DNA of 29,967 nt from a virus. This document shows positions 144 through 18,300 of this stretch, in pieces; positions within the stretch are counted from its first letter, which is position 1, and every line of letters starts with the position of its first letter. The stretch spans positions 1 through 29,967 of IMG/VR virus record IMGVR_UViG_3300006638_000018, one strand, 5' to 3'. Made by a program: the position numbers and the translations under genes. Under the pieces are notes generated by a model. That model was not told the DNA's origin, did not search any database, and saw only the letters and a program-made list of their open reading frames with translations.

Positions 144-337
144 GCCCACAGCCCAACGTCCTACGAATCATCGAAACCCTCCGCCCTGAACTGACGGAGA
201 AAGCCCAGAAGATGCGCAACAAGGGAGCATCGTTCGACGCCATCGCTCGGATGCTCTGCAACGAAACGGGGATGGAAGTAGGGCGCGAGACGGTGCGGCG
301 GTACTTCGCGCCGGACAAGGTGAGCGATGAAAAGTGA
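140..337 (+). CDS. Small HTH-like protein, 65 aa
   Basis: A 65-residue, charged, mostly helical protein. The central part (GASFDAIARMLCNETG, about residues 29-44) followed by VGRETVRRYF reads like a helix-turn-helix: a helix beginning IARML, a turn, and a recognition helix ending in RRYF, as in resolvase/HTH_23-type small DNA-binding proteins. The GTG start overlaps the upstream stop by GTGA, and the 3' end overlaps the nuclease gene by 11 bp, so it is translationally coupled inside the recombination block. It may be a small regulator or an accessory of the recombination genes. The HTH reading is inference from spacing and not certain. Confidence 0.7.
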   Translation: MSPQPNVLRIIETLRPELTEKAQKMRNKGASFDAIARMLCNETGMEVGRETVRRYFAPDKVSDEK

Positions 338-1118
338 TTACGACAACGCCCTCGCGCACAAGTACCGCGTAGAGCATGACGGGGATTTCGTCCCCGGAGT
401 CACGACGGCGATCAACATTCTGGACAAGCCCGGCTTGAAATGGGCAGCCGCGAAGTTGACCGCTGAGTACACCTTCGACTACGCGGTGAACGAGACGATC
501 AACCCAACGGACACGCCGGACGAAGAAATCCTCAAGCACTGCACCGGCCATTTCGACCGCGTTTGGCGAGACAAGGCCGCGACCGGAACCCGAGTTCACG
601 ATGTAGCGGAGCGTTGGACGAACGGCGAATCAGTTGAGGTGTCCCTCGCGGACCAAGGTTTCGTAGACGCACTCGAAGCGTTCCACAAGGAGTTCAAGCC
701 GCGATTTCTCATGGCTGAACGCGTAGTTCTCAATAAAACGCTGGGCTTTGGTGGCAGATTCGACTTCATCGGATACCTGGAGGGCATAGGGGTAGTCTTG
801 GGAGATTACAAGAGTGGCTCTAAACGGCCTCTGGAAGCCGCGCTCCAGGCCTCTGCCTACCTCCACGGCAAACTAGCCACCTACGACGAGAACGGGGCAC
901 TGAGCGAACTGCAGTCCCTACCAAAACTCGACGGAGCAAGGACGATCTACCTCCACGCGGACGGCAGTTTCGAGATGTCAGACCCCTTTGAGATAATTCC
1001 AGAGGACGAAGCGTTCGAGGCTTTCACAGCCTGCTTAAAGTTATTCACGCTTCACAAGAGCCTTACCAAAACACTAAAACAAGGGGAAGAAAATGGCAGA
1101 GTTCAAGAGGAATCTTGA
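327..1118 (+). CDS. PD-(D/E)XK exonuclease, Cas4/RecB-like
   Basis: 263 aa. The nuclease signature is visible in order: His91 in TGTRVHDVAE, Asp146 in GGRFDFIG, the Asp160-x-Lys162 pair in LGDYKSG, and a QxxxY motif (Gln174-Tyr178, LQASAYL). This is the core of RecB/Cas4-like PD-(D/E)XK nucleases, which cut DNA using two metal ions. No four-cysteine iron-sulphur cluster is seen (a single Cys at 72), so it is closer to phage RecB-like exonucleases than to classical Cas4. It is followed, with a 26-bp overlap, by an Erf-like protein; exonuclease plus annealing protein is the standard phage two-component recombination pair. Start ATG 327 is chosen because it overlaps the previous gene by only 11 bp. 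Confidence 0.85.
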   Translation: MKSDYDNALAHKYRVEHDGDFVPGVTTAINILDKPGLKWAAAKLTAEYTFDYAVNETINPTDTPDEEILKHCTGHFDRVWRDKAATGTRVHDVAERWTNGESVEVSLADQGFVDALEAFHKEFKPRFLMAERVVLNKTLGFGGRFDFIGYLEGIGVVLGDYKSGSKRPLEAALQASAYLHGKLATYDENGALSELQSLPKLDGARTIYLHADGSFEMSDPFEIIPEDEAFEAFTACLKLFTLHKSLTKTLKQGEENGRVQEES

Positions 1119-1709: not shown

Positions 1710-2021
1710 ATGAAGCGCGTCTCCGACAAGCGCAAGATAGTGAACGCGCAGCGCAAGGTCTTGATGCTAGAGAAGTTCGGGCCGCGCGAGGAGTGGAAGT
1801 GTTCGATGAACGGAATCTGGACGATAGCCCAAGGCGTTCAGGTAGGTAAGTGCCACGGAGCGGTCAACGGCCACGAGTTGTTGAAGCGTTCACGCGGCGG
1901 GTCGATTATCGACATGGACAACGTGACGCTACTCTGTGACGGTCACAATTCTTGGGTCGAGGACCACCCAATAGAGGCACACCGGCTCGGGCTTTCAATG
2001 CACACCTGGGAGGCATCGTGA
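1710..2021 (+). CDS. Small HNH-family endonuclease-like protein
   Basis: 103 aa. The HNH pattern can be followed: Cys31 and Cys48 as possible zinc ligands, Gly54-His55-Glu56 (NGHELLKRSRGG), Asn71 in DNVTLL, then Cys76 and His79-Asn80 (LLCDGHNSW). In HNH proteins the first His is the general base and the last His/Asn bind metal. The N-terminus is strongly basic, consistent with DNA binding. It could be a free-standing homing-type nuclease or a recombination or replication nuclease; its place next to the exonuclease/annealing pair favours the latter. The stop overlaps the GTG of the next gene. Confidence 0.75.
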   Translation: MKRVSDKRKIVNAQRKVLMLEKFGPREEWKCSMNGIWTIAQGVQVGKCHGAVNGHELLKRSRGGSIIDMDNVTLLCDGHNSWVEDHPIEAHRLGLSMHTWEAS

Positions 2022-2389
2022 ACGAACCCGACACCCTCTTCACCATCGGGGGCCATTGGTTTAAAAGCGAAATACTCAAGTTTGAATCCTGGCAACGCCA
2101 CGACCCGCCCTCCATCCACTACTCTCAGACTTCGATGGACGCGGCGACCTCCATCAAGCCCAAAGCTCCAACTCTCCGAGAACGCGTCTACCAAGCGATT
2201 AAGAACTCGCCATCAGGTCTGACGGACGAGGAAATCTGCCTCGTCACCCTTTTAGGCCCGTCTACTGCTAGACCAAGGAGAATAGAACTCGCAGCCGAGA
2301 CCCCGCCGCGCATCCGCAGTAATGGAAAGCGCAAGACCGTGAGTGGACGTGACGCCACGGTATGGGTCGTGACGAACGCGGATTCTTGA
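2018..2389 (+). CDS. Winged-helix DNA-binding protein
   Basis: 123 aa from GTG 2018, chosen because GTG overlaps the previous TGA (GTGA) while an upstream ATG at 1952 would run through the HNH gene. Residues 50-120 fit a winged helix: TLRERVYQAIKNSPSGLTDE, then a recognition helix (STARPRRIELA) and a wing with SGRDATVWVV at the end. This is the familiar phage pattern of a GLTDEE turn followed by a TxRPRRxEL helix and GRxAxVW. It probably modulates early transcription or replication. The N-terminal 45 residues are unrelated to the wing and of unknown role. Confidence 0.7.
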   Translation: MNEPDTLFTIGGHWFKSEILKFESWQRHDPPSIHYSQTSMDAATSIKPKAPTLRERVYQAIKNSPSGLTDEEICLVTLLGPSTARPRRIELAAETPPRIRSNGKRKTVSGRDATVWVVTNADS

Positions 2390-2781: not shown

Positions 2782-2808
2782 TGAGTAACGTCGAACAAAG
2801 GGGAAGTA

Positions 2809-3129
2809 ATGAAAGTTGAAGTAGAAATGGGAGAGTGCGTCAGTTGCAGGGAGCCAATCTCTGCATGGGAGTGGGTTTCGGGTGAGCCGTGGTGCGAGAT
2901 ATGCGTCCTGGTCAGCGCCGCGAAATGCGAACTCTGCAAAGAACTGGTGGATGTTCAAGTCGGCTACCAGGTCAGCCGCGGAGCAACATCATCCTTCGTC
3001 TGCCCGAACGATCTACTGCCTTTCGTTCTACGCGAACGACTCAATCCAGTGGAGTGCTGTCAACCCGACTACGACTACGAGCGCGGCCAGTACATCCACG
3101 ACGACGACTGCACAGGGGACGCCCCATGA
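2809..3129 (+). CDS. Cys-rich zinc-binding-type protein, 106 aa
   Basis: First gene after the promoter. Four CxxC-type or isolated Cys groups are present: CVSC (10-13), CEIC (29-32), CELC (40-43) and Cys65, with a CC pair at 83-84. The first three groups can form zinc ribbons of the LIM/RING-like kind. The acidic tail contains DDDC. No enzyme motif is visible. Such small zinc proteins in phages often bind host proteins; no specific partner can be named. The ribosome site is AAAGGGGAAG before ATG 2809. The stop overlaps ATG 3126 (ATGA). Confidence 0.75.
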   Translation: MKVEVEMGECVSCREPISAWEWVSGEPWCEICVLVSAAKCELCKELVDVQVGYQVSRGATSSFVCPNDLLPFVLRERLNPVECCQPDYDYERGQYIHDDDCTGDAP

Positions 3130-3164
3130 CCGGCAAAGACCAAGACCCGAAGGAGATGAAATGA
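3126..3164 (+). other. 12-codon mini-ORF linking two genes
   Basis: ATG 3126 overlaps the stop of the 2809 gene (ATGA), and its own stop 3162-3164 overlaps ATG 3161 of the next gene (again ATGA). It would encode MTGKDQDPKEMK. Its length is exactly the distance between two genes, so it may serve only to pass ribosomes along; the AAGGAG inside it is the ribosome site of the 3161 gene. Chance is the alternative. Confidence 0.3.
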
Positions 3165-3352
3165 GACACAACCCAATCAGGGGCCTCGTCTTGACGAGCA
3201 ACCCTCCCCAGTATTACTGCGTGGATGATGACGGGAACCGTAACCCGTGCTACTGCCACGTCTGCGACTGGGACGGGTGGGCTCCGCAGAGCGAGGACGA
3301 GATGCACGCGATAAGCAACGAGAGATTGCTCCGGCTGTTCGAGGTGAGATGA
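3161..3352 (+). CDS. Small Cys-rich protein, 63 aa
   Basis: 63 aa from ATG 3161, chosen because an AAGGAG ribosome site lies 5 nt upstream; longer readings would overlap the 2809 gene out of frame. The core CYCHVCDWDGW (30-40) is a compact Cys cluster, with Cys20 as a possible fourth ligand. The C-terminal helix ISNERLLRLFEVR is charged. Unrecognised; likely a small metal-binding protein. Stop and next start overlap (ATGA at 3349-3352). Confidence 0.7.
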   Translation: MRHNPIRGLVLTSNPPQYYCVDDDGNRNPCYCHVCDWDGWAPQSEDEMHAISNERLLRLFEVR

Positions 3353-3816
3353 CCGACACCCCCATATCCCGAGAGCAAGCGATTGAAGCGCTCGAAACGC
3401 GAGTTGAGGAATCGGAACAACGCGCGGCTCGGAACGAGTTCGGCGACGCCGAGTGGGAACGTGGCTGGCTCATTCGCAGGCGCGGGATGGAGGATGCACT
3501 CAACATCATCTCGGCCCTTCCCCCTCTCAACTCACTAAGAGAACCCCTAGAACCAAGCATTTACAGTCACGATGAGAACCATCTGCCGGACAACGAACTG
3601 CCGGGGATGTGGGAACGGTCCGACTATGAGGGCGGCGAAACCGATTCTCGTGACGCCATCCTCACCACCTCTCCCCCGATACAAGGAGAGGGCGCGTGCC
3701 CGCATGTTGACTTGCACGGCGATTCTTGGAAGGGGCAAACGATATGGGGCAAACCGTTCGCGCACTGCCCCGACTGCGGTCAACCACTTTCCAGCCCACA
3801 AGAAGAGGGCCGATGA
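3349..3816 (+). CDS. ISR-domain protein with C-terminal zinc ribbon
   Basis: 155 aa from ATG 3349 (ATGA overlap). The N-terminus PISREQAIEALETR followed by GMEDALNIISALPPL matches the phage small-protein type with an ISRxxAIEAL helix and an I..L..LP helix, also seen in the 4381 gene, so the two look paralogous. The C-terminus holds Cys117, His119, Cys140 and Cys143 (CPHVD...HCPDCGQPLSS), a zinc ribbon. The final PLSSP segment is encoded by a repeat that recurs at other gene ends in this run. Function unknown. Confidence 0.75.
   Translation: MTDTPISREQAIEALETRVEESEQRAARNEFGDAEWERGWLIRRRGMEDALNIISALPPLNSLREPLEPSIYSHDENHLPDNELPGMWERSDYEGGETDSRDAILTTSPPIQGEGACPHVDLHGDSWKGQTIWGKPFAHCPDCGQPLSSPQEEGR
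3774..3795 (+). repeat. Gene-junction repeat A, copy 1
   Basis: 22 bp identical to 4331-4352, containing the 18-mer GGTCAACCACTTTCCAGC that also occurs at 6127-6144. It encodes the (C)GQPLSS tail of the 3349 gene. Similarity to the third copy continues to the next start codon, where both downstream genes begin (A/G)TGAAACTCG. Here the Cys belongs to a genuine zinc ribbon, so this may be the ancestral copy. Confidence 0.8.
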
Positions 3817-4379
3817 AACTCGTTTACGCTGACCCTCCTTACCTCGGTCAATGCGCGAGCTACGACCACTTCCACGGTGAAGGTCTTGAAATGCCGTGGG
3901 ATGGGCTGTGCTGGGATGATTTAAACACGCAGCTCATTCTTCTCGACTGGTTGAGCGTGGTCCCAGATGGGTATGCGTACTCGTGCAACCCGAGCGATTT
4001 GGGGGCGGTCGCATCGCGCTTCTATACGGGCGTTCGGATCGCCGCGTGGACCAAAACCTGGCACCAGATACGCCCGACGACCGTGCAATTCGCGTGGGAG
4101 CCGGTGATATTCAGCCCATCTCGCAAGGACAACAAGCGCACGCCAATGGTCCGCGACTGGCTCAGCTGCGCCGTGACGCAACAGACAGGGCAGCGCGGGG
4201 CCAAGCCCGACGCCTTCAATGACTGGATTCTCGACCTCTTGGTCTACGAACCGGACGATGAATTCGTGGATCTATTCCCCGGCAGTCATTCAATGCAACG
4301 AGCGTTAGACCGATTTGAGCAACGACTTCGCTGCGGTCAACCACTTTCCAGCGCCTCTACACCTGAAATGGAGAGTTGA
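3813..4379 (+). CDS. DNA methyltransferase, N6-adenine/N4-cytosine type
   Basis: 188 aa from ATG 3813 (ATGA overlap). DPPY (7-10) is catalytic motif IV of amino-methyltransferases. KPDAFNDWILDLL (131-143) and FVDLFPGSHSMQRAL (151-165) correspond to motifs X and I in permuted order, with the SAM-binding motif near the C-terminus. Motif I reads DLFPGSH where GSG is usual. The enzyme would methylate adenine N6 or cytosine N4 using SAM. It is small, with little room for a separate target-recognition domain. There is no adjacent restriction enzyme, so protection of phage DNA from host restriction is likely. The last 15 residues come from junction repeats. Confidence 0.8.
   Translation: MKLVYADPPYLGQCASYDHFHGEGLEMPWDGLCWDDLNTQLILLDWLSVVPDGYAYSCNPSDLGAVASRFYTGVRIAAWTKTWHQIRPTTVQFAWEPVIFSPSRKDNKRTPMVRDWLSCAVTQQTGQRGAKPDAFNDWILDLLVYEPDDEFVDLFPGSHSMQRALDRFEQRLRCGQPLSSASTPEMES
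4331..4352 (+). repeat. Gene-junction repeat A, copy 2
   Basis: 22 bp identical to 3774-3795. It gives the methyltransferase a CGQPLSS ending although that protein has no zinc ribbon, so the Cys here looks like a passenger. It runs directly into repeat B. Confidence 0.8.
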
Positions 4380-4384
4380 AATGA
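4346..4384 (+). repeat. Gene-junction repeat B, copy 1
   Basis: 39 bp matching 4809-4847 at 35 positions. It spans the end of the methyltransferase gene, the stop codon, the GGAGAG ribosome site and the ATG of the next gene. It encodes SSASTPEMES; copy 2 encodes SSAPTPEGES. Confidence 0.8.
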
Positions 4385-4842
4385 GTAATCCTACTGAGCC
4401 AAGTGAACTGAGGGGCGACGTGATTTCACGAATAGCGGCGATTGAGGCAGTGAAGAAATGCCGACCGCGAGAGCCGTTCCAGTACGCACACGAATACACA
4501 GAGCGTGACATGATTGATTTGCAGATTATCCCGTCTCTCTCGACTCTTCCGAGTGTCCCTGAACCACCGACATGTCCAAATCCAAAAATTCACGTCGCAT
4601 GCAATCTCGACGGCGAAGGCTACTGCTCGACTCACACTTCATGGCGCTGTTTCCCGAACCGTGGCGAAATCGCAGGTGTCGTTTCCAGCGCCCCTACAGG
4701 GCTAACGAGGGAGACTTTGTTGACATTGAAAGAGCAACTTTACGAGCGGGCGAACTCCTTTTACGACGATGAGCAAATCGACGCTTTCATTGATTTGATT
4801 CTTGAATCTTCCAGCGCCCCTACACCTGAGGGGGAGAGTTGA
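4381..4842 (+). CDS. ISR-domain protein, apparent fusion of two small proteins
   Basis: 153 aa from ATG 4381, one base after the previous stop, with GGAGAG upstream. Residues 13-60 (DVISRIAAIEAV ... IIPSLSTLPSVPEPP) resemble the N-terminal part of the 3349 protein. Residues 65-90 hold CPNPKIHVAC and CSTHTSWRC, a possible zinc site. Residue 101 onward begins VSSAPTG, encoded by 16 bp identical to the gene-end repeat at 4809, then a separate helical segment (LKEQLYERANSFYDDEQIDAFIDLIL). The protein ends SSSAPTPEGES. The internal copy suggests that two cassettes were joined after loss of a stop. No enzymatic motif is seen. Confidence 0.75.
   Translation: MSNPTEPSELRGDVISRIAAIEAVKKCRPREPFQYAHEYTERDMIDLQIIPSLSTLPSVPEPPTCPNPKIHVACNLDGEGYCSTHTSWRCFPNRGEIAGVVSSAPTGLTRETLLTLKEQLYERANSFYDDEQIDAFIDLILESSSAPTPEGES
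4683..4698 (+). repeat. Internal relic of junction repeat B
   Basis: TTCCAGCGCCCCTACA is identical to 4809-4824 and in the same reading frame (SSAPT in both), but lies inside the 4381 gene with no stop after it. It is best read as an old gene boundary now internal to a fused gene. Confidence 0.65.
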
Positions 4843-4847
4843 AATGA
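4809..4847 (+). repeat. Gene-junction repeat B, copy 2
   Basis: Second copy of the 39-bp junction, spanning the end of the 4381 gene, the GGGGGAGAG ribosome site and the ATG of the truncated methyltransferase at 4844. Confidence 0.8.
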
Positions 4848-4898
4848 AGCCGCGACTTTTGGATTTGTTCTGCGGGGCTGGTGCGCTAAACTGGTCCA
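4844..4898 (+). pseudogene. N-terminal remnant of a C5-cytosine methyltransferase
   Basis: From ATG 4844, with a good ribosome site in the junction repeat, the frame reads MKPRLLDLFCGAGAL, which is SAM-binding motif I at the extreme N-terminus of a C5-methyltransferase. After about 18 codons the similarity stops and an HNH gene begins in another frame. The frame stays open to 5371 but its translation there is a low-quality shadow of the HNH gene. A complete methyltransferase with its own RPRLLDLFCGGGG motif follows at 5455. The codons of the two motif I copies differ at many synonymous sites, so this is not a recent duplication; the remnant looks like a displaced older gene. Confidence 0.6.
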
Positions 4899-5450
4899 AT
4901 GACAACAGTGACGTGCCAGCACTGCGGCGAGGTGTTCGAGTCCCAGCGCAAGACGCGGAAGTTCTGCTCGCGGGGCTGTTCCAATCGAGCCGCCTGGGTG
5001 GTCACGAAGACGCGCCAATGCCGACACTGCGGCAAGGAGTTCCCGGTGTCAGGGATAGGCGACGCCAATCGTCAGCACTGTTCCAAGGAATGTGCCAAGA
5101 ACCACGCGGCCAAGACGGTGAGCACCTGGCAGGCCGAGCACCCCGAGATGCGGACGACCTACCGCAAGAATCAACTAACCAAGGACCCTGGCTACGAGCG
5201 GAAACGGTGGCAGGACCGCAGGGGAAGGATTCTCGACCTACTGGGCGGCGAATGCGTCGTGTGTGGGGTAACGAACCCCTACTGGCTGCACGTCGACTTC
5301 ATCCCTACGGGACGGGGTCAGACGTACCGACACCCCAGGCACTACCGATACGTGTCGGAGCATCTGGATGAGTTCCGAATCCTCTGCGCCAATCACCACT
5401 ACGAACTCACCCTCACCGGGCGAATCAAAGGAACCGACATCACCCAATAG
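4899..5450 (+). CDS. HNH homing-type endonuclease with double zinc ribbon
   Basis: 183 aa. Two N-terminal zinc-ribbon units are clear: CQHC...FCSRGC (6-27) and CRHC...HCSKEC (41-65). The C-terminal nuclease shows CVVCG (119-123), His131-x-Asp133, and ILCANHHYEL (161-170) with the closing Cys/His metal ligands of the HNH fold. A basic linker (TYRKNQLTKDPGYERKRW) joins them. This is the usual build of phage free-standing homing endonucleases. The gene starts inside the remnant methyltransferase and ends inside the 5' part of the intact one. There is no good ribosome site before ATG 4899 (CTGGTCCA), so it may be translated poorly or through the remnant's initiation. Confidence 0.85.
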   Translation: MTTVTCQHCGEVFESQRKTRKFCSRGCSNRAAWVVTKTRQCRHCGKEFPVSGIGDANRQHCSKECAKNHAAKTVSTWQAEHPEMRTTYRKNQLTKDPGYERKRWQDRRGRILDLLGGECVVCGVTNPYWLHVDFIPTGRGQTYRHPRHYRYVSEHLDEFRILCANHHYELTLTGRIKGTDITQ

Positions 5451-6165
5451 ACCCAGGTTGCTTGATCTTTTTTGTGGTGGGGGGGGCGCAGCCATGGGCT
5501 ACCACCGAGCTGGGTTCGAGGTAGTGGGAGTGGACATCAACCCGCAGCCTAACTACCCGTTTGAGTTTCACCGGCTAGACGCGATGACTCTCGCCCCGCA
5601 GTCATCCCACCGGTGCTGGCATCCTGGAAAGCGAACGAATTCAGCAGACTGCCTCGGGGCATTTGATGTCATTCACGCGAGTCCTCCCTGTCAGCACTAC
5701 AGCACCGCTACGGGGAAGAGCCGGCAGCATCTGTACCCCGATTTGGTTGGGCGAGTACGTGAATTACTAATCTCCGCCGGGGTTCCCTACGTCATCGAGA
5801 ACGTGCCAGGTTCACCCCTCTCTACCACCTTCGTTCTTTGCGGCTCGATGTTCGGGCTGAGAGTTCGCCGGCACCGCCTCTTCGAGAGCAGTTTTCTCGT
5901 TATGCCGCCGCGTTGCGCCCACAAAACACAAGGGGAACCCGTTGGCGTGTACGGGATGGGGGGCGCCTACCGAGAGCGGGCAAGCGGGGGGAGTAGAGGA
6001 AACAAGGCCGCGCCGGCGCAGTACGCGGAGCTTATGGAAATGCCGTGGGCCGAACCGTCAGAAATTCGCCTCGCAATCCCCCCCGCCTACACCGAATACA
6101 TAGGAACCCAACTTTTGCAGCACTTGGGTCAACCACTTTCCAGCCCAGTGAAGGAGGACCTGTGA
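5368..6165 (+). CDS. C5-cytosine DNA methyltransferase
   Basis: 265 aa. Motifs in order: I DLFCGGGG (33-40); catalytic Cys108 in SPPCQHYS (IV); VIENVPGS (142-149, VI); RVRRHRLFES (165-174, VIII); and PPAYTEYIGTQLL (238-250, X). It transfers a methyl group from SAM to cytosine C5. At 265 aa it is shorter than usual, with a small target-recognition region (about 176-215). The start is uncertain: ATG 5368 has GGAG 7 nt upstream but adds about 29 residues with no family similarity, encoded over the HNH 3' end; TTG 5458 would begin at the conserved motif but has a weak ribosome site. The C-terminus GQPLSSPVKEDL comes from junction repeat A. Confidence 0.88.
   Translation: MSSESSAPITTTNSPSPGESKEPTSPNRPRLLDLFCGGGGAAMGYHRAGFEVVGVDINPQPNYPFEFHRLDAMTLAPQSSHRCWHPGKRTNSADCLGAFDVIHASPPCQHYSTATGKSRQHLYPDLVGRVRELLISAGVPYVIENVPGSPLSTTFVLCGSMFGLRVRRHRLFESSFLVMPPRCAHKTQGEPVGVYGMGGAYRERASGGSRGNKAAPAQYAELMEMPWAEPSEIRLAIPPAYTEYIGTQLLQHLGQPLSSPVKEDL
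6127..6144 (+). repeat. Gene-junction repeat A, copy 3
   Basis: GGTCAACCACTTTCCAGC, identical to the core of copies 1 and 2. Similarity to copy 1 goes on through CCCA, a purine-rich ribosome site and TGAAACTCG, the first codons of the next gene. It encodes GQPLSS at the end of the C5-methyltransferase. Confidence 0.8.
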
Positions 6166-6326
6166 AACTCGCCGTTTGTAAAAACTGCGGCCTCAAAATC
6201 TCGAACGAATGGGGTGCCTGGGGGCATGTCGAAACGCTGACGAGTTTGTGTGACAAGACCGAGATGGGCGGCAGAATTCTTTTGTTTGCAGCCCCTCAGA
6301 GCCAAGCGAAAGGTGAGGAAGCATGA
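6162..6326 (+). CDS. Small Cys protein, 54 aa
   Basis: 54 aa from GTG 6162, which overlaps the methyltransferase stop (GTGA) and has an AAGGAGG ribosome site 6 nt upstream, the strongest in this run. CKNCG (6-10), His21 and Cys29 could bind one zinc. The pattern CxNCGLxI....WxH resembles the one-knuckle small proteins common beside phage methyltransferases. Stop overlaps the next ATG (ATGA at 6323). Function unknown. Confidence 0.7.
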   Translation: MKLAVCKNCGLKISNEWGAWGHVETLTSLCDKTEMGGRILLFAAPQSQAKGEEA

Positions 6327-6943
6327 GTGACGAGGTGTGTTCAAATTGCGATGGGCGAAAATGTATGGGCTGTGTATTCCGCGAGCACCCTCACGAGTGC
6401 GCCGACGACTGCCCGTTTTGTTGTCCTCGTGACACGTCGAACGACTGCCATCACGGGGTTCCCGGCGATTGCGTTCTGTGCGAAAACGAACAACTCCGCG
6501 CCGAACTCGCCGCCCTTCGCGAGCCCGAGAGCGTGGTGTCACCAGACGAACCGACTGAGCGCGAATACGAAATGAATGTGCGCATGATGGAGATGCTCGT
6601 TGCTCTCGTAGCCATAAAGCAAGCGGCCCTCGATAGTTCGCTGGACAGAATCGCCGCGATTCTTGAAGGGCTGTCTGAGTCGGCACAAGAACGCTTGGAC
6701 GCTCGCGCCCCCACGTCACTAGACGACCGAGTAAAGAAGTTGGAGTGGCGGGAAGAAAGCGCAAAAGGCGGAGGCTTAGACGTTTTCGCTGACGGCTTCA
6801 CGATTCAGGATGACCTAGATCGCGGAGGCTGGAATCTTTACGTAGACAAAATCCACGTTTCCACGCTTGACGAAGCCAAATCACTGTCTCAAACCATCCA
6901 ATCCCTTCTCTCTAGCCCTACGTCAGTAGGGGGCGGGGAATGA
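6323..6943 (+). CDS. Cys-rich N-terminus plus coiled-coil protein, 206 aa
   Basis: Residues 6-53 hold a dense series of Cys and His (CSNC, CMGC, CADDCPFCC, CHHGVPGDCVLC), enough for two zinc sites. Residues 55-67 (NEQLRAELAALRE) start a coiled coil, and 80-145 are helical with heptad-like hydrophobics. Residues 150-200 look alpha/beta (LDVFADGFTIQDDLDRGGWN). The C-terminus LLSSPTSVGGGE matches the end of the next gene. A scaffold or host-interaction protein is possible; no enzyme motif is seen. Confidence 0.7.
   Translation: MSDEVCSNCDGRKCMGCVFREHPHECADDCPFCCPRDTSNDCHHGVPGDCVLCENEQLRAELAALREPESVVSPDEPTEREYEMNVRMMEMLVALVAIKQAALDSSLDRIAAILEGLSESAQERLDARAPTSLDDRVKKLEWREESAKGGGLDVFADGFTIQDDLDRGGWNLYVDKIHVSTLDEAKSLSQTIQSLLSSPTSVGGGE
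6921..6943 (+). repeat. Gene-junction repeat C, copy 1
   Basis: 23 bp covering the last codons (SVGGGE), the stop and the AGGGGG ribosome site for the next gene. It matches 7154-7176 at 22 of 23 positions (C/T difference inside the G-run). Confidence 0.8.
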
Positions 6944-7176
6944 GCCGAAGGAGTCGAACCGTGACCGTTACTGATTTCTCCGAAAATCGCGTGGTTAAGT
7001 TCCAACCAAGTTCTCCACCAGAAAAACGCGAGCCCGTATTAGTAAACGGTGAACGCGGAATTGTGAAGAAGGCCGCTGTCTCTTGGGTAGGGGATGTGTG
7101 GACGTTGACGAAACTTGTGGTCGTAATGGATGAACAGGCTTCTAGTTCGCCGGCGTCAGTAGGGGGTGGGGAATGA
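6940..7176 (+). CDS. Small beta-rich protein, 78 aa
   Basis: 78 aa beginning ATGA over the previous stop. The middle (EPVLVNGERGIVKKAAVSWVGDVWTL) alternates hydrophobic and polar residues like a small beta-barrel. It ends SSSPASVGGGE, nearly the same as the gene before it but with no other similarity. Unrecognised. Confidence 0.6.
   Translation: MSRRSRTVTVTDFSENRVVKFQPSSPPEKREPVLVNGERGIVKKAAVSWVGDVWTLTKLVVVMDEQASSSPASVGGGE
7154..7176 (+). repeat. Gene-junction repeat C, copy 2
   Basis: Second copy of the 6921-6943 repeat, again ending in ATGA where the next gene starts. Confidence 0.8.
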
Positions 7177-7304
7177 CCATGCAACGCGAACACGGACGCG
7201 CAACCTACAACAAGGGATGCCGCTGTAGGTTCTGTGTTGAGTCCTGCAAGCTCTACATGAGGCGCTACCGAGCGCGGAAGAAGGCCAGCCATTCTTACTC
7301 TTAG
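7173..7304 (+). CDS. CRC-type small basic protein, 43 aa
   Basis: ATG 7173 overlaps the previous stop (ATGA) and uses the AGGGGG ribosome site in repeat C. The 43-aa product has CRCRFC (17-22) plus Cys26, followed by a basic helix with YMRRYRARKK. The pattern HGxxxYxxGCRCxxC...YRR is one I recognise as a common tiny actinophage protein, probably zinc-binding and nucleic-acid-binding. The function is not established. Confidence 0.7.
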   Translation: MTMQREHGRATYNKGCRCRFCVESCKLYMRRYRARKKASHSYS

Positions 7305-7377
7305 CCAAATCCATGACCGCTTAGAACGAGAATTAGACCGTCTCGAAGAACTGGTTTCTGAGGTTCAGGAAGCGGGG

Positions 7378-7635
7378 TTGTCCGCGGCGAGAACAGAGTC
7401 CGAGTACAGGAGCGAGGCGGCGAAATGTGCGCTCTCCATACGTGCGACGGCCATGACCAAGATGACTGTGGGGGAAATCGACGCGGAGGTCCAAATCGCC
7501 TGCGAGAAACTCCACTTGGCGTACCTAATCGCGGCGAACAACTTAACAACGGTTCGCGAAGCGGTGAGAGCCGGGACTACAAGGGTTGACGCCCTACGAA
7601 GTCTCGCCGCGTCGTTCAGGTCTGCCGGAGGATAA
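7378..7635 (+). CDS. Helical phage protein with uncertain start
   Basis: From TTG 7378 (AGGA 8 nt upstream) the product is 85 aa, mostly helical: EYRSEAAKCALSIRA ... ACEKLHLAYLIAANNL ... DALRSLAASFRS. This resembles a widespread small phage family with an N-terminal coiled coil, a YKxAxAK helix and a C-terminal LxxxRSLxAxxR. The in-frame codons before TTG encode RLERELDRLEELVSEVQ, an obvious coiled coil that the family has, so the true protein is probably longer. That frame is open from 7261 but has no ATG, GTG or TTG; ATT 7291 with AGAAGG upstream, or a single-base indel after ATG 7313, would supply a start. The 3' end overlaps the leftward 7616 gene by 20 bp. Confidence 0.55.
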   Translation: MSAARTESEYRSEAAKCALSIRATAMTKMTVGEIDAEVQIACEKLHLAYLIAANNLTTVREAVRAGTTRVDALRSLAASFRSAGG

Positions 7636-7753
7636 CCTCCGTCTCTTCAATAACGTCCTGAATCATCCTCGGCAGCGCAGCAAACATCCTCCAGCGCCAG
7701 TAGTTGCAGTCGGCGCACTCGGGGTCGTCACAGAACTCGCTACAACTCACCAT
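7616..7753 (-). CDS. Small Cys-rich protein, last gene of leftward operon
   Basis: 45 aa from ATG 7753, overlapping the end of the 7747-8391 gene by 7 bp. CSEFC (4-8) and CADC (13-16) form a compact four-Cys zinc site, followed by an aromatic stretch (NYWRWRMF) and an amphipathic helix (MIQDVIEETEVILRQ). Unrecognised. It converges on the 7378 gene with a 20-bp tail-to-tail overlap. The coupling, Cys spacing and clean end support it as real despite its size. Confidence 0.6.
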   Translation of the reverse strand: MVSCSEFCDDPECADCNYWRWRMFAALPRMIQDVIEETEVILRQT

Positions 7754-15327: not shown

Positions 15328-18300
15328 GCCTTCAATCGACTGACCCCACCGCTCCGCCGCCTACGCCAACCGCGTCGGGCTTTTCAACATCTCTCAACAC
15401 CGTTCTGAACACAGCTCCAGAGTTAGCGAAGTCCCCAGGACTCTCCGTTGGGATAGCACAGGCCGGTGGAGATACGCAAGGCAATTCACAAGCAGTAGCG
15501 AGAGGGACGAACGCCATCTCCGACACGACCGCGCACGCCTCGGTCGCGGCGGCGGTCGGCGGCGGGAACGTCCTGCAAACTGCTCTCGACTGGTTCGGCA
15601 ATCACGTCTCTTCGACGGTCGGTCAGTACGGGTCTGACGTTATCAAGGGTGTGCAGAAGGTCGGTTCGGCGGCGCTCGGCACGCTGAACAAGCCAATGCA
15701 AATCGTCCAGCACGAGTACAGGTATTTACATGACGTGGAGGCGACGCATGGCCCTATGGCCGCGTTACTGGAAGGAATTGGCATAGCCGCAGGCGCAGTC
15801 GGCGGGACTCTTGCCACCGGGAGTCTCTACGGCGGCGTCTTAGGAGCGGAGGCCGCGACGGGTGTTGAGTCGCAACTCTTCTACAACGACTCGTGGAGCC
15901 GCACCTCGAAGGCTAGTTACGTCGATCCCAACACCCATCAGCAAGTCTCATTCGGGCGCGACGTGGTGTCGGAACTCTCGCGAGTTGTCCCAGGCCTGCA
16001 ACGGCAGTCAACCGGATTCAAAGTAACCTCAGGTCTTCTCGACGGGGTGTTCGACATGAACGTCGGTGGGACGGAACTCCTAGGTCTTGCTGGGAAGGCC
16101 AACTCTGCCGAAGGACTCGGGGGGGTCCTGGGTGATTACTTTCCTGGCAAGGCCCCGCAGACGACGGAACAGTTCGACAGTCTGTTGAACTCAGTCTCAG
16201 GTGGCAACGTTCGCAGGGCCTTTCGCGATATCGCGTCCAAGACATCGGGAGAGATTGCTACCGCCTACCGTCCTCTCGCAAATCAGGCGGATTTCTTAGG
16301 CGCCCTCGGGCGGGCGAACACCGAGGAGGATGTCGCGCAGTTGTTCCGCTCAGCAATCAGGACGCACGAACTCGCCTTCATGGAGAAACTGCCGACATTC
16401 TCCGTAGGAAGGCTTCCCTTCCAGGCGATGCACGAAGCGATGGGCAACTCTGCCATCCCTGGCGTGCAGAATCTCTTTCGTGCAACCTCTCGCCTGCCGA
16501 CCTCGTGGGATGACGTAGAGAAGGTTTGGACCAACAAGCAGTTCGACCCCGCGTCCTCTGCCGACAGCGGGATACTCGGTGTCTATAGAACTGCGTTGTT
16601 CACCGAGAACCAGCACACCGCGGCTTCGCTCTCGCAAGCATTTGCCAACGCGGACGTTCCAGGGAAAATCCGTATCTGGAAGAACCTCCAGATGTCCACC
16701 ATGATCAACATGGCTGGGTATCACGGCTTCTCGAAGGATGAATACTTAGCAGCCGCGTTCGACGACCCGACGGTCCGAGCGGAGTGGGGTCACGCAATCG
16801 ACGAAGCCGTCGCTCAAGGGATGTTCGGCAAGTCTGCGGTGTATGGATACTCACCCGAAGCGGACATCTCGACGGTGAGAGACACGCAGACGGGCGCCAC
16901 ACACTCAGCAGCGATAACGAAGAACCAGACAGGAAGTTTCGAGTACCTCGACCTCGCAAAAGTCCGACGGGCGGGGCAGATTCTTGGCAACCACAAGGCT
17001 GCTGCGATGATTGGCGGATTCGGGGACTTCGCGTACGACCACGTAACGGCAGCGGTCTTTAAGCGCTGGGTGCTGATGTCACCGTCCTACGCCATGCACA
17101 TCTCTCTCGCGGAGTTAATCCCCAACGCGTTACGTCTCGGCCCGTTCACACTTGTACGGAGTTCCGTCGAAGGGCGCATGGCTGAACTCGGAGTGAAAGC
17201 AGAGCAGGGCGACATCAACGCCGTCGAAGGTATCGTCTACAAAACGCTTCGTCACATCCCGGGACTGACCATCGACTCGAAGAACGTCCAGTACGCGACG
17301 GACGCGATTCTCAGCAACGACGGGCAGATAGTTCCTCGCGCGTTGAGTTCGGGCCACAACTACGCCGACGAGATTCTTCCGCGAGATGAGAAGTCGGTCA
17401 GCCTCATCAGACGGGGGATGTTCGATTCAGGCAAGACGGCGCAGAAACTCTCTGACGACTTCGCACTCTACGGGGCTGGGAGTAAGCAGTACGACGACGC
17501 GTGGCAGGCGTCGCTGCACGAAAGTTCTAGGGATGAAGCAAGCCAGATGGCCGCGAAGACAATTCGGGCAGGCGCGGCGCGCGGCGAAACGCTGGACGAA
17601 GCGACGGCTAAGGCGACTCAAGAAGTGGCTGCGTACCTCCGTAGTGAACCCGAGGCCTACAAAGGCTTCTTCCTGCGCTCACTACCGCACATAACGTCGT
17701 TTCCCGCTGGGATTGACCGACCTCCCAACATGGATCAGTTCGACGAGTGGGCGAACGCGATTGTGAAGAAAGTGGTTGGAGAGACGAAGGGTGTTGACGG
17801 GACACTGCATGTCCCGCTTCTAAGCCACGTCGCCAATGGAGAGTTGGTCGATGATGCCGAACTCTCCGCTATCCCCGCACACCAACGCCCACTCATGGTG
17901 AAGGGCCGCGAGGCGGTTCCTTCGGGCGACCCCTCACTTCAACGAATCGCCAACTGGGGCTTTCGTCGAGTCCTGAATCCGATGGTGAACTTCCTCAGCC
18001 GTCAACCGATTTGGATGGCGCAGTACATCAAGGAACGCACGCTGCTACAAGACGCAGTGGACCGTGGGTTCTTGAGTGACGACGAAGCGAAGGTCGCGGC
18101 CAACATCCGCTCAACGCAAAAGGTGATGGACAACGTTCACAACCTGACCGACCGCACACAGTGGACCGTGACCTTCAGGAACTGGGCGCCGTTCTACTTC
18201 GCGCAAGAGCAGGCGTATCGCAGGATGGGACGGTTGTTGGCCGACAACCCCGCCGCCTTTAGGAAGTATCAACTGATGATCACTTCCATGCACGACGTGG

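Follow-up and report, generated by a model that had tools for sequence, protein, structure and literature searches.

Short in-frame joints at the ends of small phage genes as probable sites of gene exchange between otherwise unrelated phages

How phages with almost no DNA in common swap small genes without breaking their expression is an old question, and a likely answer can be read in the sequence of a single block of small genes. The block occupies approximately positions 3160-7640 of IMG/VR virus record IMGVR_UViG_3300006638_000018, whose 29,967 analyzed nucleotides are referred to here as the window, and lies between an exonuclease region and a set of leftward genes. Repeats of three families (A, B and C) are present at six of its eight gene ends. 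Here we report that in-frame joints of this kind make up most of the DNA shared by unrelated phages, and that the tails of orthologous genes differ exactly there. We consider it probable that phages use the repeats as short joints, read in frame, where whole genes or parts of them recombine without loss of reading frame or translational coupling.

Repeat A occurs three times: positions 3774-3795 and 4331-4352 are identical (22 of 22), positions 6123-6144 match at 20 of 22 with 18 exact, and the broader pair 3773-3822 and 6122-6171 is 80% alike over 50 bp, including the start of the next gene. The copies of repeat B (4346-4384 and 4809-4847) agree at 35 of 39 positions, and a third, partial copy that is absent from the initial annotation (4682-4698) lies within gene 4381-4842, where it encodes the linker VVSSAPTGLTR. 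Repeat C (6921-6943 and 7154-7176) matches at 22 of 23. The tails that the repeats encode are all read in one frame (GQPLSS three times, SSA(S/P)TPE twice and SVGGGE twice), and the same repeats carry the ribosome site and start of the next gene. Junction 4331-4384 is a composite, its 5' half being repeat A and its 3' half repeat B. These repeats are not due to chance: the longest exact repeat in positions 3000-7700 is 22 bp, compared with a mean of 11.8 and a maximum of 16 in 200 dinucleotide shuffles, and 22 repeated 14-mers are found where shuffles yield 0.06. The three families described in the initial annotation thus all exist, far above shuffle expectation; its six genes in a row stand as six gene ends with repeats, not strictly consecutive, since an HNH-endonuclease open reading frame (ORF, 4899-5450) and gene 6162-6326, both without repeats, interrupt the series.

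The window is a rotation of the 44.6-kb phage genome IMGVR_UViG_3300025679_000002 (G3; 44,612 bases), which we call closed because of its 127-base terminal repeat, and the overlap between the two is identical in this second assembly. It was compared with G1 (3300037100_000084; 46 kb), a distant relative with a similar layout and approximately 21-49% identity for most matching structural proteins; with G2; with G4 (3300048784_000146; 32.8 kb); and with G5 (3300025703_000003; 53 kb, with a 99-bp terminal repeat), whose virion genes differ from those of the window's phage except for two weak matches of small proteins, and whose exonuclease is 45% identical. Genes were called by a simple script rather than an established gene finder, so that some short genes were missed. 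The features of the block, followed by the nearby exonuclease, are:

3349-3816 (+): small gene (ORF), 155 amino acids (aa), with an N-terminal ISR..AIEAL module, a DNELPGMWERSDYEGG module, a CPDCG zinc-ribbon-like C-terminal end and the tail GQPLSSPQEEGR; islands of DNA identity with G2; no family in Pfam and PHROG region scans
3773-3822 (+): joint A1, comprising the tail GQPLSS..., stop, ribosome site and next start (ATGAAACTCG); 22-bp core 3774-3795 (repeat search)
3813-4379 (+): N6-adenine methyltransferase-like gene, 188 aa, tail RCGQPLSSASTPEMES; weak match to Pfam MethyltransfD12, under its cut-off
4331-4384 (+): hybrid joint A2/B1; A half 4331-4352 and B half 4346-4384, overlapping in TTTCCAGC (repeat search)
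4381-4842 (+): mosaic gene, 153 aa, whose start, linker and tail islands are common with G5 gene 4973-5620 (DNA comparison)
4393-4445 (+): start island, 49 of 53 bp identical to G5 4976-5028, 35 bp exact (DNA comparison)
4682-4711 (+): intragenic copy of joint B as linker (SSAPTGLTR); 4687-4711 identical in G2 (25/25), 21 bp exact in G5
4798-4849 (+): joint B2, comprising the tail ILESSSAPTPEGES, ribosome site and next start; core 4809-4847; 47 of 52 bp in common with G5
4844-4900 (+): 5' stub of a C5-methyltransferase truncated by the HNH ORF (MKPRLLDLFCGAGALNWS); the start of the C5-methyltransferase of G1 matches it at 92.7% over 41 bp
4899-5450 (+): HNH endonuclease ORF, 183 aa, without a shared tail (PHROG 1271, E 6e-15)
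5458-6165 (+): C5-cytosine methyltransferase body, start codon uncertain, tail GQPLSSPVKEDL (PHROG 363, E 3e-35; Pfam DNA_methylase)
6122-6171 (+): joint A3, comprising the tail GQPLSSPVKEDL, ribosome site and next start (GTGAAACTCG) (repeat search)
6162-6326 (+): small gene (ORF), 54 aa, without a shared tail, starting within joint A3
6323-6943 (+): small gene (ORF), 206 aa, tail SSPTSVGGGE
6921-6943 (+): joint C1 (repeat search)
6940-7176 (+): small gene (ORF), 78 aa, tail SSPASVGGGE
7154-7176 (+): joint C2, 22 of 23 with C1 (repeat search)
327-1118 (+): phage exonuclease (PHROG 298, E 1e-23), adjoining a protein of a PHROG whose function is not known

The most telling evidence comes from relatives: in G1 the two methyltransferases keep their bodies but have other tails. 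Residues 1-172 of the N6-methyltransferase of G1 are 76% identical to those of the window's, yet the G1 protein ends in AAPPVGTQG and the window's in RCGQPLSSASTPEMES; similarity of the DNA starts at ATGAAACTCG (ATG) and ends 2-5 nt short of repeat A2. Likewise, the C5-methyltransferase ends QLLQHL-SPPVVTQE in G1 and QLLQHL-GQPLSSPVKEDL in the window. Both G1 tails resemble those of their G1 neighbors, and the PPVGTQ family also ends two G1 genes just upstream; other gene-end families in this genome are APVEG, SPANE and LESLSQE, the last being the sole G1 family pair in which the gene bodies are related too. In 79 other loci, C5-methyltransferase homologues mostly stop near residue 223, and the tails are therefore additions to a complete body. 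The view in the initial annotation that homologous junctions allow gene shuffling is supported by the comparisons it proposed, and the expected breakpoints do fall at the junctions in the case of the G1 N6-methyltransferase. A separate observation concerns the HNH ORF, which interrupts the C5-methyltransferase (4844-5500): on its 5' side lies the stub and on its 3' side PRLLDLFCGGGGAAMGYH, a diverged version of the stub motif (70% to G1), a layout that would fit an HNH ORF that came in together with a methyltransferase downstream of it and displaced the resident copy.

Joints are also common to phages that have little else in common. The virion genes of G1 and G4 are unrelated. No match was found by blastp among the called proteins of these two phages, and all eight exact DNA matches between them (19-32 bp, at a cut-off of at least 18 bp) lie at gene junctions, zones that occupy 10-12% of each genome. 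One of these, TTCGGGGCCACCTGTAGGGACGCAAGAATGA (31/31), has different genes on either side in each phage, and a 17-mer from another such joint occurs in G1 and G4 only, among 2.9 million viral contigs. Between the window's phage and G5 there are just three exact matches of at least 18 bp, corresponding to a gene start (35 bp), a tail (32 bp) and an internal linker (21 bp), and all three fall within a single pair of mosaic genes (4381-4842 in the window, 4973-5620 in G5), the DNA alignment of which is not above chance outside these islands. Joint B is 90% similar over 52 bp in the two phages, three consecutive G5 genes end in it (SSSAPTPETEK, SSSAPTPETEE and SSNAPTPETEG), and the linker of the mosaic gene is also common to G2 (25 bp). 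Micro-ORFs in G1 (MSRSAPPVGTQE) and G5 (MTRPPEPSERKEKK) contain little besides joint sequence, and from their sequence they look like emptied slots, as expected after a gene between two joints is lost.

Two further observations were made in G5. A repeated gene start, TGAGCCAAGTGAAC (protein TEPSE), is found three times at successive genes or micro-ORFs (locus L196, approximately 1920-2360, reverse strand) and once in the window (4393 onward), so that start- and end-associated repeats occur within one block. In addition, a 20-bp exact match joins G5 5245-5264, directly before the shared linker, to G4 17409-17428, within a gene of another region, and is either chance or a further trace of exchange.

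Searches beyond these genomes returned little. The type-B and G1 joints found no match among 50,697 phage records at the sensitivity used, and no cultured phage record with these joints was seen; what other queries of that collection found was limited to remote methyltransferase homologues and a single match of 25 residues. Joint B had no match in 85,000 bacterial and archaeal genomes, and the N6-methyltransferase query of bacterial genomes produced a single weak match only. Nothing matched in an Rfam search.

These patterns suggest how exchange might work. In a hypervariable block of small early genes, a joint would span approximately 20-55 bp and run from the last codons and stop of one gene through the ribosome site to the start of the next. 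Where two phages, or two sites of one phage, carry similar joints, recombination inside them could swap the intervening gene or gene part and preserve both reading frame and translational coupling. A newly arrived gene would acquire the tail family of its new home, which may explain why neighboring unrelated genes share tails, and joint sequences that double as linkers inside proteins would allow gene parts to be exchanged as well as whole genes. Selection would then retain those recombinants that are in frame and coupled to translation. The engine is likely annealing-type homologous recombination, by a phage exonuclease together with a RecT-like annealing protein, its own or that of a co-infecting phage. 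We favor this type because RecT is present in G1 and G5, YqaJ in G1 and a PHROG 298 exonuclease, possibly part of the recombination machinery, in the window, and because joint identities of 19-35 bp fall around the published minimal pairing segments, which are 23-27 bp for Red-beta and 31-34 bp for RecA (PMC3945230). Phage recombinases are known to work on short, diverged homology (PMC3945230). An AlphaFold2 model of the protein adjoining the exonuclease had a pLDDT of 44 and was unusable. What the sequences show is the sharing of joints, the boundaries at which orthologues part and the hybrid joint; recombination at joints as the cause, its enzyme and any advantage are inferred.

Several points weigh against recombination at the joints. 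All records are metagenome assemblies, no exchange event between near-identical genomes was seen, and RecT had no match in the window's own phage or in G4. The strong form, or part of it, occurs in five genomes only, and joint A is known from the window's phage only. The prediction that junction sequence would be found next to other genes is borne out by the 31/31-bp match of G1 and G4 and by the 35-bp exact match of the window and G5, but not by the A 18-mer that had been proposed as a probe, which was detected among viral contigs in the window's phage only, plus one chance match within an unrelated gene (L003); the corresponding B 18-mer gave, besides G5, two chance matches only (L195 and L197). 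A first control survey detected tail sharing in 65 of 16,265 nearby pairs versus 2 of 12,884, figures inflated by ribosome-site similarity, and only a small excess is left outside this group when the ribosome site is omitted or gene ends from other phages serve for comparison. Finally, gene ends copied again and again within a genome, with no exchange between phages, could also give rise to the repeats shared within it.

A more far-reaching reading, which we think rather unlikely, is that phages of the same habitat, though unrelated, maintain a shared set of coding joints as a standard connector for exchanging genes and protein parts, possibly recognized by a dedicated phage protein and retained since swapped genes, supplied with frame and ribosome site, could be expressed at once. 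Among the rival explanations, we consider unlikely local copying, by which gene ends are copied forward inside one genome through duplication and partial deletion (slippage, gene conversion) during gene gain. The repeats are indeed strongest within a single block of a single genome, tail likeness is greatest between neighbors, and joint A fits this pattern as well; yet local copying leaves unexplained both the joints common to G1 and G4 and to the window and G5, which have no shared neighbor genes, and the gene bodies whose likeness extends as far as the joints although the tails differ between phages. It may act together with exchange.

Convergence of translation signals, in which gene ends are alike only through a ribosome site and stop/start overlap selected for coupling, is improbable and, for the window, already largely refuted. 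Every joint does have a purine-rich ribosome site plus a stop/start overlap or short gap, and elsewhere among phages the similarity of neighboring gene ends is mostly of this kind, but identity in the joints reaches well upstream of the ribosome site, silent positions included. With the last 15 nt left out, gene ends are still distinct from control windows in G3 and G5 and sharing between unrelated bodies persists, and exact matches of 31-35 bp between unrelated phages are not expected from a ribosome site.

That the C-terminal tails are selected as peptides, for localization, degradation or partner binding, seems very improbable. Although all of them are read in the same frame and P, S, A, G and E are frequent in them, orthologues carry unrelated tails and most homologues have none; pairwise codon differences within these small families are mostly replacements (8 silent and 15 replacement in B, 0 and 18 in the G1 type), silent positions are kept in identical stretches, and the same DNA serves as an internal linker, which together make a selected peptide unlikely. 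The least credible alternative is site-specific movement of cassettes by an integrase or homing endonuclease recognizing the joint: one site per gene 3' end recalls integron cassettes and an HNH endonuclease interrupts a methyltransferase gene of the block, but that ORF sits inside a gene and not at a joint (other enzyme classes remain candidates), tyrosine recombinase (PF00589) is absent from the six records compared (G000-G005, although an integrase may sit in a host or in the missing part of incomplete records), and the joints fold no better than shuffles (z -1.25 to 1.76), with no common hairpin. Of the cassette system suggested in the initial annotation, the pattern of sharing through homologous junctions stands, whereas a dedicated system is not apparent, no integrase or site-specific machinery having been found.

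Other observations were made along the way. At locus L159 (approximately 5781-5816 and 6367-6402), two gene ends with unrelated coding sequence have 31 bp in common across the stop (GGTGTCGTCGTGACCGCGCCTGATCCGGGG), possibly an independent case in another phage. General sharing of gene-end tails among phages was also considered and dropped, as most of the likeness between neighboring gene ends in other phages is close to what ribosome sites and shared genes would produce. Outside the window, G3 41062-41248 (locus L104, 1062-1248) contains tandem-like repeats of approximately 30-39 bp within a predicted 257-aa gene, and in G2 (locus L105, approximately 2790-3180) a gene adjoining a mosaic gene block has a C-terminal half consisting of a long run of short A/R/D/W-rich repeats (AARDAAWDAA...).

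Joints at which phages probably recombine offer a way to detect phages that were formerly in genetic contact, and they carry a warning that the C-terminal tails and linkers of such genes need not reflect protein function. How they relate to known systems can be judged feature by feature. Short conserved boundary or linker sequences occur in lambdoid phages. The mosaicism of temperate phages is homology-driven, by Rad52-like recombinases (De Paepe et al. 2014, PMC3945230), and the joints resemble it in probably allowing exchange between phages via short imperfect homology; such homology at module borders of otherwise dissimilar genomes is found here, with identity lengths within the phage-recombinase range.

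The promoter early stem-loops (PeSLs) of T4-type phages (Arbiol et al. 2010 and Comeau et al. 2014, via PMC4503421) are intergenic elements combining a promoter and a stem-loop; like the joints, they are short repeats between genes of a plastic region, held to mediate cassette shuffling. Repeats flanking shuffled cassettes are found here as well, as joints flank different genes in both related and unrelated phages. Unlike PeSLs, the joints are coding and have neither an excess of promoters or terminators nor a common hairpin: positions 3160-7400 contain one promoter-like and four terminator-like matches, no more than the shuffle mean and none at + strand joints, for a sigma-70-type consensus that may not be the host's.

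Start-associated sequences (SAS) of cluster K mycobacteriophages follow a single 13-bp consensus, GGGATAGGAGCCC, directly before gene starts; they stay with their gene from phage to phage and have been linked to translation (PMC3203893). SAS and extended SAS (ESAS) are likewise short repeats, at the starts of unrelated small genes within one phage genome, but the joints form several families, lie in the last codons of the upstream gene and differ between orthologues. The consensus (at most two deviations) has two matches in the window against 0.84 expected and none in the block, and, as regards the 17-bp imperfect inverted repeats of the ESAS, no inverted repeat lies between joints and the joints themselves fold no better than shuffles. 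The likeness to SAS that had been proposed is therefore loose, as the motif is not enriched and is linked to translation starts rather than to shuffling. Integron gene cassettes, also reported in phages (PMC9892861), similarly have one site per gene 3' end, similar sites along an array and unrelated genes that are shuffled; unlike them, the joints come with no integrase that we found and no folded attC-like site, and are coding and in frame. Among the four known systems, homology-driven mosaicism alone agrees in its testable features, the picture for a phage-encoded annealing-type recombinase being mixed (RecT in G1 and G5, no match in the window's phage or G4); PeSLs, SAS/ESAS and integrons each fail at least one defining test. 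The joints differ from all four in lying at the coding end of a gene, together with its stop and the ribosome site and start that follow, in recurring as families within a single genome, in varying between orthologues and in being reused as a linker inside genes.

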